From Cyanobium sp. T1B-Tous (GTDB taxonomy: Bacteria; Cyanobacteriota; Cyanobacteriia; PCC-6307; Cyanobiaceae): a DNA stretch of 64,000 nt. The DNA is taken from NCBI RefSeq assembly GCF_024345475.1, contig NZ_JAGQBE010000002.1, positions 1 to 64,000 of the forward strand. The letters are read 5' to 3'. Position 1 is the first letter of the stretch. The number at the start of each line of letters is the position of its first letter. The notes below the pieces were generated by a model, which searched no databases, was not told the DNA's origin, and saw nothing but the letters and a program-made list of their open reading frames with translations. Shown one piece after another: positions 1,898 to 5,925 of this stretch. A program made the translations under genes and the position numbers.

Positions 1898-2950
1898 ATG
1901 AGTCACACCGAATCCTCGGAGTCCCACAGGGCCCACAATCCGGCTGTTCTTGCCTCTGCCGCGATGCGCCTGGCTACCGCCTGGACCGCCCAGCCCGCGC
2001 TGCTGGGCCAAACCCAGGGCTACCGCCACTTCGCCCTGTTGGGGGAGCGGGGACGGGGCGCCGAGCGGGCGGCGGAACTCCAGGCCGTGCTCGAGCCCGG
2101 CTGGCGCCTGGTGGTGCCCCTGCGGGAGCTGCGCAACCGCCAGCTCTGGCAGCCTGGCTGGCAGTCATTGCCCCCGGCCCCCTCCATGCAGGTGATCCCC
2201 GCCATCGATCTGCTCGACGGTCAGTGCGTGCGGCTGCACCAGGGCGACTACGACCAGGTGACCCGCTTCAGCGACGACCCCGTGGCCCAGGCCCTCAGCT
2301 GGCAGCAGCAGGGTGCCCGGCGGCTGCACCTGGTGGATCTCGACGGCGCCCGCAGCGGCGAGCCGGCCAACGACGCCGCCATCAAGGCGATCACCGCCGC
2401 CCTCACCATCCCCGTGCAGCTGGGCGGGGGGGTGCGTAGCACCGAGCGGGCCGAAGAGCTGCTGGCCTGCGGGCTGGATCGGGTGATCCTCGGCACCGTG
2501 GCCCTGGAGCAGCCCGAGCTGGTGGACACGCTGGCCGCCCGCCATCCCGGCCGGATCGTGGTGGGCATCGACGCCAAGAACGGCAAGGTGGCCACCCGCG
2601 GCTGGATCGAGGAGAGCAGCACCGAAGCCACCGAACTGGCCCGGCGGTTCTCCGCCAGCGGCATCGCCGCGATCATCAGCACCGACATCGCCACCGACGG
2701 AACCCTGGCGGGGCCCAACCTGGAGGCCCTGCGGGCCATGGCCGAGGCCAGCGCCGTGCCGGTGATCGCCTCCGGTGGCATCGGCACCCTGGAGCACCTG
2801 CTCTCCCTGCTGGCCCTGGCCCCCCTGGGGGTGGAGGGGGTGATCGTGGGCCGCGCCCTCTACGACGGCCGGGTGGATCTGGCCGAAGCCCTGCAGGCCA
2901 TCGATGAGGGACGGCTCCAGGATCCGGACGCGGCGTCGATGATGGCCTGA
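1898..2950 (+). CDS. hisA: Trp-rich TIGR02450-like domain fused in frame to HisA isomerase
   Basis: The frame is open for 350 codons. From 2186 (residue 97, MQVIPAIDLLDGQCVRLHQG) it is a complete 254-aa HisA, ProFAR isomerase of histidine synthesis, with catalytic Asp in the AIDLLDG strand, the LGGGVRS loop, and Asp in STDIATDGTL. Residues 23-92 match the small cyanobacterial Trp-rich TIGR02450 family: AWTAQP, GYRHFAL, then VVPLRELRNRQLW and QPGWQ. Normally HisA begins at the ATG at 2186, but no ribosome site precedes that ATG and no stop separates the two parts. The product may be a fusion, or two products may come from one frame. The HisA call is secure; the exact start (1898, 1964 or 2186) is not. 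Confidence 0.85.
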   Translation: MSHTESSESHRAHNPAVLASAAMRLATAWTAQPALLGQTQGYRHFALLGERGRGAERAAELQAVLEPGWRLVVPLRELRNRQLWQPGWQSLPPAPSMQVIPAIDLLDGQCVRLHQGDYDQVTRFSDDPVAQALSWQQQGARRLHLVDLDGARSGEPANDAAIKAITAALTIPVQLGGGVRSTERAEELLACGLDRVILGTVALEQPELVDTLAARHPGRIVVGIDAKNGKVATRGWIEESSTEATELARRFSASGIAAIISTDIATDGTLAGPNLEALRAMAEASAVPVIASGGIGTLEHLLSLLALAPLGVEGVIVGRALYDGRVDLAEALQAIDEGRLQDPDAASMMA

Positions 2951-2969: not shown

Positions 2970-3719
2970 ATGACCGATGCCCTGGGCACGCGGGCCGTGC
3001 TGGCGGTGCTGGTGCCCGCCACCAACACGATGGTGGAACCCGACCTGGCCTCCCTCCAGCCCCCGGGGGTGACCAACCACACCTTCCGCTTTCCGTTCCC
3101 GGAACTGCCGGCCACCCCGGAGCGGTTGCTGGAGCTGATGGAACCGGCCGTCGCCATGGTGCTGGCCTGCGAGCCGGACCACCTGGTGCTCGGCTACTCC
3201 CCCGAATACATGCCGGAGGCGGCCGGCGTGGCCCAGCAGCTCAGGGCCACCCTGGAAGCGGCGAGTGGCCTGGGCGTGACCACCGCCACCGCCGCCGTCA
3301 GTGCGGCGCTGCGGGCCCTGAACTGCCGGCGGCTGGGCATCGTCAACCCCTTTCCCGAGCAGGCGAATGCCGCCGTGCTCAGCCACTTCCAAGCCGAAGG
3401 CTTTGAGGTAGGGGCCATGGAATGCCTGGCCAGTGCCCAAAAGGGCAAGGTGTTTTCAGCGCGAGTCAGCGCCGAACGGATCCGGGAGGCCTTCCGGGCC
3501 GTGAACCACAGCGGCGTGGATGGGCTGCTGCAGGTGGGCACCAACCTGGTGGCCACCTCCCTGGTGGAGGAGCTGGAGCAGGAACTGGGCAAACCCGTGA
3601 TCGCGGTCAACACAGCCACCTATTGGCACGCCCTCCATCACCTGGGCCTCCACACACCGGTGGCGGACTGCGGACGCCTGATGGCGCTGAAGGCCCATCC
3701 GGCCATGCCCACACCGTAA
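2970..3719 (+). CDS. Asp/Glu racemase / maleate isomerase-fold protein lacking catalytic cysteines
   Basis: A 249-aa protein starting 19 bases after hisA. The fold is recognisable from VPATNTMVEPDL at the N-terminus, GIVNPF in the middle and VEELEQELGKPVIAVN followed by TYWHAL near the C-terminus, all typical of arylmalonate decarboxylase and maleate cis-trans isomerase. These enzymes use one or two cysteines. Here the first position reads LGYSPEYM (residues 74-81) and the second reads QVGTN (Gly190 where Cys is expected), so both are absent. It may act on another substrate without thiol chemistry, or only bind a ligand. Position after hisA suggests co-transcription but does not reveal the substrate. 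Confidence 0.75.
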   Translation: MTDALGTRAVLAVLVPATNTMVEPDLASLQPPGVTNHTFRFPFPELPATPERLLELMEPAVAMVLACEPDHLVLGYSPEYMPEAAGVAQQLRATLEAASGLGVTTATAAVSAALRALNCRRLGIVNPFPEQANAAVLSHFQAEGFEVGAMECLASAQKGKVFSARVSAERIREAFRAVNHSGVDGLLQVGTNLVATSLVEELEQELGKPVIAVNTATYWHALHHLGLHTPVADCGRLMALKAHPAMPTP

Positions 3720-4314: not shown

Positions 4315-5925
4315 GTGAGTTCGCAGCTGCTGCTGTTTGCTGAACCACTGCTGCGTGATGGACTCAGCCGCCTGCTCACCGCCCAGGCTGATCGCTACAC
4401 GGTGGCCCAGTCACCCGAGGAACTGAACGGCCTGCCGCAGTTGGTGCTCTGGCAGATGGGCAGCAGGGCGGCCTCGCTGGAAAGCTTGACCCAGGAGCTC
4501 CAGCTGCTCCAGGAGCGCTGGCAGCCCGCGCCGCTGCTGCTGCTCCTGCCCGCCGGCCATGGGCTGGCCCATGGGGCCCTGCTGCAGCTGCCCGCCGCGG
4601 GGGTGCTGGAGGCCCCAACGCCCCAGGAGCTGCTCGAGGCCATGGCCACCCTGCTCGCCGGTGGCCGGGTGCTGGCGGTGTCCTCCGGCTCGGCCGCGGC
4701 GTTGGCCAGCCCCGATCCCAGCCCCACCCTCGGGCTGGGCCAGTGGCTGCTGATCAGTGGACTGCAGCAGATCGACGCCGACAGCCAGGCGATTCAACGC
4801 CTGCTCACCCCGCCACCCACCAACCTGGTGCACCTGCTCGTGCTGCAGGGGCGGCTGCGGGAGCTCTCGGCGGCCCGGCAGCTGCTGCTGCTGCTCTGGG
4901 GGCCCATGAGCCTGGCCTGGGGCCCCGGCCCGCAGGCGGCGGCGGAGGCGGAGTCGGTGCTGGCGATCACCCTGCAGCAGCGCAGCGCCGATGGCATCTG
5001 GAGTGCCCTTCGCCAGCGGTTGGAAGCCGGCGCCGAGGCCGGGCTCACCAACCACAGCGGCCAGCTGCTGGCCCTGGAGGGCCTCAGCCCGGAGCGCCGC
5101 CGCGACCTGCTGCGGGCCCTGCTGAGTCAGGTGGACAGCCTGCGCCAAAGGCTGCTGGCGGAGGAGTGCCCCACCCAGCCCTTGCAGGAGCGCTGGCTCA
5201 CCTGGCAACCGGAACTCCGCCAACAGGCCCTGCGCAGCTTGGTGAACCCCTATGTGCAACTGCCCCGGGAGGGCCAGCTCCAGCCCGTGGCCGAAACCCT
5301 GATCCGCAGCAGCGAGCTGGAGGGAGGCGACCCGGAACTGCCCGATCCCCAGCCGATGCTCGCCGCCCTGGTGCGGGCCCAGCCCCTGCTGGTGGAGGGC
5401 CAGTTGGTGGCCGCCGACGAGCCTCGGGCCGTGCTGCATCTGGAGCTGCTGCTCAGCAACTGGCTGGTGCGCAGCGCCGAACTCGTGAGCGCCGAAGTGC
5501 TCGCCAGCTGCGGCAGCTGGCCGGAACTGCGCCGTTACCTGCTCCAACCCGAGCTGCTGGCCACCCGCAACCTCGAACGGCTGCGCAACCAACTCAACGC
5601 CCAGCAGCGCTGGACCAGCTGGGTGGAGCGGCCAATCAGCCTCTACGAAAGCCGCCGCCGGCTCTACTGCCTGCGCGATGGCGCCATCCGCTGCCACGAC
5701 CTCACCGAGCCCCGGGATCAGGAATTGCGCCAGCTGGGCTGGCTGCAGCAACTGGTGACCCTCAGCCTGGAAACCCGCGATGCCCTGGCCCCCCAGGTGC
5801 AGGCCCTGGTGCGCGGCCTTGGCGATCTGGTGGTGGTGCTGCTCACCCGGGTGCTGGGCCGGGCCATTGGCCTGGTGGGCCGGGGCATCGCCCAGGGCAT
5901 GGGCCGCAGCCTGGGTCGCAGCTGA
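4315..5925 (+). CDS. DUF3685 / Ycf55-like protein
   Basis: A 536-aa protein beginning with GTG at 4315. The first 110 residues look like a degenerate receiver fold (LLLFAEPLLRDGLSRLL, then LVLWQ and LLLLLP) without an obvious phosphoacceptor Asp. The C-terminal half has the pattern of the plastid-encoded Ycf55 family: YVQLPREG, then ELLLSNWLVRSAELVSAEVL and LYESRRRLYCLRDG. The last 40 residues are hydrophobic and glycine-rich and could bind membrane. In red-algal plastids and cyanobacteria the family is widespread but has no established function. Leucine and glutamine content is very high. The family call is fairly secure; any role is unknown. Confidence 0.75.
   Translation: MSSQLLLFAEPLLRDGLSRLLTAQADRYTVAQSPEELNGLPQLVLWQMGSRAASLESLTQELQLLQERWQPAPLLLLLPAGHGLAHGALLQLPAAGVLEAPTPQELLEAMATLLAGGRVLAVSSGSAAALASPDPSPTLGLGQWLLISGLQQIDADSQAIQRLLTPPPTNLVHLLVLQGRLRELSAARQLLLLLWGPMSLAWGPGPQAAAEAESVLAITLQQRSADGIWSALRQRLEAGAEAGLTNHSGQLLALEGLSPERRRDLLRALLSQVDSLRQRLLAEECPTQPLQERWLTWQPELRQQALRSLVNPYVQLPREGQLQPVAETLIRSSELEGGDPELPDPQPMLAALVRAQPLLVEGQLVAADEPRAVLHLELLLSNWLVRSAELVSAEVLASCGSWPELRRYLLQPELLATRNLERLRNQLNAQQRWTSWVERPISLYESRRRLYCLRDGAIRCHDLTEPRDQELRQLGWLQQLVTLSLETRDALAPQVQALVRGLGDLVVVLLTRVLGRAIGLVGRGIAQGMGRSLGRS

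Follow-up and report, generated by a model that had tools for sequence, protein, structure and literature searches.

An in-frame fusion of a DUF2389 (TIGR02450-like) tryptophan-rich domain to HisA in Cyanobium sp. T1B-Tous and in freshwater relatives of Cyanobium

The window analyzed here, a stretch of 64,000 nucleotides of the Cyanobium sp. T1B-Tous genome, contains on the plus strand an open frame of 350 codons without an internal stop (positions 1898 to 2950). A preliminary description had read this frame as a fusion of a TIGR02450-like tryptophan-rich domain to HisA, with the HisA ATG at position 2186. Both statements are borne out, as the two parts lie in one stop-free frame, both score above the cutoffs of their families, and the HisA part begins with its own ATG at 2186. 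The frame start at 1898, in contrast, was less well supported than the ATG at 1964. The nearest relative, Cyanobium sp. FACHB-13342 (locus L132), has TTG where the window has ATG 1898, and the two sequences differ by an 11-nucleotide indel between 1898 and 1964, whereas ATG 1964 is present in both; the start at 1898 was therefore rejected. The fusion gene is thus best read as positions 1964 to 2950 (328 codons plus the stop), with the HisA methionine as residue 75. The in-frame upstream extension (1898 to 1963), broken by the indel in the sister genome, is probably noncoding, and judging from this comparison its 22 codons are probably untranslated. Among the named fused loci, 29 of 31 have an ATG or GTG 4 to 8 codons (mostly 6) upstream of a [YWF][TS][AC] motif, the remaining two having no motif and hence not being scored as having the start. 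No obvious ribosome site was seen by eye at 1964 or at 1898, and the missing ribosome site before HisA therefore says little. Over residues 1 to 328, the fusion gave a full-length profile match to six rows of the genus.

The N-terminal part of the protein (positions 1973 to 2164) was assigned to the TIGR02450/DUF2389 family by profile matches. Residues 26 to 89 of the 350-codon frame matched TIGR02450 with 46.0 bits (curated cutoff, 36.85), and residues 28 to 89 matched PF09493 (DUF2389) with 50.3 bits (curated cutoff, 25), in agreement with the family named in the preliminary description. The conserved positions of the family (WT, G-x-RHF, and W-x-x-GW) are present in the window as WT, GYRHF, and WQPGW. 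Two tryptophans, that of the RWVEL segment and the one just upstream of the next conserved block, are missing from the window copy and likewise from the free-standing DUF2389 copies of genus group g8. Elsewhere DUF2389 is a free-standing protein of ~70 to 110 amino acids, as in marine genera, Planktothrix, and Trichodesmium, whereas here it shares the open frame of HisA without a stop and forms an N-terminal domain. The N-terminal part is consequently a domain of the TIGR02450/DUF2389 family and not a typical member of it. A PDB sequence search with the domain returned nothing below an E value of 0.9. The AlphaFold2 model built with alignment A5 (mean pLDDT, 86.7) places a small beta domain ahead of a TIM barrel, with strands at residues 6 to 9, 22 to 29, 36 to 41, 48 to 52, and 62 to 64 and block pLDDT values of 77 to 93; the single-sequence model was poor (pLDDT, 46.8) and was left unused.

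A linker of 7 codons (positions 2165 to 2185) leads from the W-x-x-G-W motif to the HisA methionine, and positions 2186 to 2950 encode a complete HisA (ProFAR isomerase) TIM barrel. Residues 99 to 330 of the 350-codon frame matched the HisA profile TIGR00007 with 259.7 bits (cutoff, 228.95) over positions 1 to 230 of the 231-position model, and the match to the bifunctional HisA-TrpF profile TIGR01919 was below its curated cutoff (184.3 versus 306.45 bits). D82 and D203 of the 328-residue protein (residues 8 and 129 when numbering starts at the HisA methionine), which we take to be the two catalytic aspartates of HisA, are invariant in 31 rows. In a Foldseek search of the whole chain against the PDB, TIM barrels dominated the matches, which were to HisA and PriA folds (best match, 4tx9; E value, 8.1e-26). 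The protein thus has the full-length barrel of the HisA family (TIGR00007 and PF00977) and differs from it in ~74 additional N-terminal residues. It fits the ProFAR isomerase family and is predicted to have isomerase activity.

In a search of the genus, the domain was found in 12 of 16 genomes, and all 13 loci with the domain run in frame into HisA (one, L007, is cut within HisA). In the order, at least 45 of 399 genomes carry an in-frame fusion. This number comprises the 41 full-length in-frame matches to a profile of the whole fusion among the matches listed, three genomes in which the two parts were found by reading to be adjacent in one frame (G084, G122, and G157), and one whose fusion is truncated by the end of its contig (G009). 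The fusion is held by 8 of 44 genus groups (g1, g8, g9, g14, g16, g17, g25, and g34). When named genomes were scanned with the domain alone, 57 loci were obtained, of which 31 are fused (including those of Cyanobium usitatum, Vulcanococcus limneticus LL, and Synechococcus sp. 8F6) and 26 are separate, the latter being 8 free-standing copies in the Cyanobium clade, L171, and 17 loci of deep-branching cyanobacteria. L171 and L176, the second of which is among the 17, were scored as separate owing to frameshifts inside the domain. No match to the domain was found in plasmids, phages, or viral contigs.

The linkers of the fused loci that were read vary in sequence and range from ~4 to more than 20 codons, and none contains a stop codon. 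This settles a point raised in the preliminary description, in which loss of a stop with read-through was offered as the alternative to a fusion. The window does come from a fragmented bin with signs of a second species, which could favor an artefact or a recent stop loss in this one genome. However, no stop interrupts this junction in at least 45 of the 399 genomes of the order, including the single-contig assemblies G004, G015, and G090, so that a local read-through is rejected and such an origin can be considered practically untenable. The fused frame is conserved in independent genomes and is under coding constraint, as expected of a bona fide fusion. The fusion in freshwater relatives of Cyanobium is almost certainly real and conserved.

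The domain is under purifying selection, with dN/dS values below 1 in all 23 disjoint pairs of fused genes (highest value, 0.78). It evolves faster than HisA (pooled pN/pS, 0.425 versus 0.231). Fused genomes have a single DUF2389 match, which is the fused one, except for two: G000, the assembly of the window, has a second copy on contig C5 that is also fused, and G279 has a second fused copy cut by a contig end. Both are likely mixed bins. The second neighborhood in G000 (locus L002 on C5, the window being on C35) has the same epimerase-like gene, DUF2389-HisA, and Fur-like gene in a diverged form and is close to C. usitatum-type sequences; this assembly probably mixes two species. Within the window's class, the photosynthetic class of the phylum, 108 of 114 sampled genomes have DUF2389; outside this class, the phylum sample gave 5 of 130. 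Family group f31, of another class of the phylum, includes five genomes with DUF2389, and the domain is not strictly limited to the photosynthetic class. Two DUF2389 copies were observed in genomes of small-genome marine lineages (G018, G034, G052, and the g2 genomes). Many relatives have no detectable DUF2389 match and yet have HisA, so that the enzyme can evidently do without the domain.

The HisA ATG is retained in all 46 fused genes, and many other HisA columns are as invariant as this methionine. The 50 nucleotides around it are less structured than a median of 98% of gene-body windows, similar to the starts of unfused hisA genes. Compared with synonymous variants, the ATG region of 25 thinned fused genes was more open in 0.78 of draws versus 0.52 at control sites (p = 4.6e-5), and the values were 0.75 and 0.50, respectively, for all 46 fused genes; this openness is partly due to the amino acids MQIIPAID. 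Lowered GC3 is typical of a start. Relative to the gene body, the GC3 of the first ten HisA codons was shifted by +0.045 in fused genes and by -0.055 in unfused genes, which speaks against initiation at the HisA ATG of fused genes. The thinned set used for openness and GC3 excludes genes with a body GC3 below 0.75, which kept 27 of 30 unfused representatives and all 25 fused ones. No Shine-Dalgarno sequence for an internal HisA start was seen by eye.

The long fusion product is very probably made. Since the HisA ATG is kept and the mRNA around it is open, it may serve as a second translation start, giving two products, a fusion of ~35 kDa and HisA alone of ~27 kDa (masses estimated from length); we regard the chances for and against this as evenly balanced. 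The conserved ATG and its open context would also suit overlapping units in one frame, in which HisA is made almost solely from its own ATG, the domain acts as a leader, and read-through is tolerated without purpose. The high variability of the linkers and the retention of HisA in unfused relatives after apparent domain loss point the same way. However, if the domain were useful only by itself, a stop at the junction would be cost-free and expected, and none occurs in the fused loci read; the purifying selection on the domain also argues against a mere leader, and we consider this arrangement somewhat unlikely.

The history of the fusion was approached through trees of both parts. A pattern for the HisA frame missed 3 of 101 loci (L225, L226, and L229), which were left out of all counts, and two g25 genes (G278 and G150) that it labeled unfused were fused on reading, leaving 46 fused and 52 unfused genes. 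In the HisA tree of these 98 genes the fused label is scattered, with 10 changes, at least 5 of which are forced by well-supported branches, and within group g8 the domain is variously fused, split off, relocated, or absent. Such a pattern could arise by repeated independent fusion or by horizontal spread rather than from one ancestral fusion followed by losses. Against this, the slot is identical each time, the domain lying directly upstream of hisA, and in the domain tree "fused" needs just 3 changes, although this tree has 63 columns and is poorly resolved. The domain tree does not include L035, which a search pattern missed, and has too few columns to place the free-standing g8 copies relative to the fusion.

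Signs of loss were also found upstream of unfused hisA genes. The exact sequence TGGCAGCCTGG, which resembles the final part of the domain, occurs 36 nucleotides upstream of hisA in G356 (g13), and with one mismatch it precedes hisA, out of phase, in the sister genomes G253 and G375 (g34), which probably share one event. At no more than one mismatch it was thus found in 3 of 52 unfused genes versus 0.18 expected from shuffles, with the qualification that this 11-mer was picked post hoc, after the sequences had been seen. The in-phase pattern R.?[LI]WQP, also chosen after looking, occurs in 2 of the 52 unfused genes (G058 and G356), a number reached in none of 2,000 shuffle rounds. When the regions preceding unfused hisA were searched for remnants with a profile, the matches were at noise level beyond the top one, which was G356, in phase. 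In the g8 genome G329, the domain occupies the same slot adjoining a divergent epimerase-like gene, with an opposite-strand gene inserted before hisA; this gene, at about positions 5045 to 5818 of locus L124, has a signal-peptide-like start and splits DUF2389 from hisA. Other g8 genomes have a free-standing domain, located after an FAA hydrolase gene in those that were read. Because of the remnants in two unfused genus groups and the one split locus, which indicate loss, the fusion was probably ancestral in this clade and then decayed repeatedly, and repeated fusion or spread appears unlikely.

Taken as a whole, the observations are best explained by a genuine old gene fusion in which DUF2389 has become the N-terminal part of HisA, and we favor this explanation with good confidence. 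A near-universal small cyanobacterial protein, DUF2389, would have come to lie immediately upstream of hisA in the Cyanobium-like lineage of the picocyanobacteria and would since have been carried as the N-terminal domain of HisA, the HisA part staying the only HisA of the genome. HisA would then act as a carrier, and the long product would do the job of the small DUF2389 protein while attached to the enzyme, given that most fused genomes have no DUF2389 copy besides the fused one.

The preliminary description had seen in a fusion an unusual clue to the role of the small family. The fusion itself stands, but as a guide to function it is weak, given that HisA exists in genomes without a DUF2389 match. 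We found nothing other than the fusion that links DUF2389 to histidine synthesis, and a direct functional link between the two is doubtful. Still more improbable is a dual-start gene giving HisA alone and HisA with a DUF2389 sensor or tether, which would link the condition of the photosynthetic cell with histidine (and purine/AICAR) flux; if it were true, the lineages that lost the domain would have uncoupled histidine flux from the photosynthetic state. The fusion nevertheless gives a first handle on the family, as it occurs in cultured strains, involves an enzyme whose reaction is known, and can be tagged, partly deleted, and assayed. The clade also provides a natural experiment, in that it contains relatives with the fused, split, or relocated form as well as relatives lacking the domain.

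We found no open-access full-text paper that names TIGR02450, DUF2389, or PF09493 or that describes the fusion. Known fusions of histidine genes are hisIE, hisNB, hisHF, hisIED, and the hisA/hisF elongation, and DUF2389-HisA is not among these five in the part of the source consulted (PMC1963479). The known cases resemble the window gene in that a his gene product and an added domain form one chain, but they are fusions or elongations among histidine genes (PMC1963479), whereas the partner of HisA in the window fusion is a protein of unknown function.

In marine relatives, free-standing DUF2389 genes adjoin a methyltransferase or calcineurin-like phosphoesterase gene. Other neighbors are presumably pcb in one genome and scpB, chlL, and lexA in others. 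Among the loci read, there was no constant neighbor and none was recognized as a his gene acting at this step of the pathway, and neighbor gene calling by the longest frame is noisy in GC-rich loci; no functional inference was therefore drawn from the neighborhood. Some proteobacterial DUF2389 members may lie near photolyase genes. In G018, one DUF2389 copy (locus L122) precedes an HTH-like gene and a putative pcb gene, which we take to encode the chlorophyll-binding protein.

Downstream of the fusion, the window has a 249-amino-acid ORF on the plus strand (positions 2970 to 3719), located between the fusion and the Fur-like gene. It presumably resembles an Asp/Glu racemase or a maleate isomerase, and the C5 copy lacks it, the Fur-like gene there directly following the fusion. 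In two loci of filamentous cyanobacteria (L181, positions 5206 to 5841, and L175, positions 5222 to 5836), the gene for an uncharacterized protein of ~205 to 211 amino acids lies directly downstream of DUF2389, and the two proteins are alike by eye.
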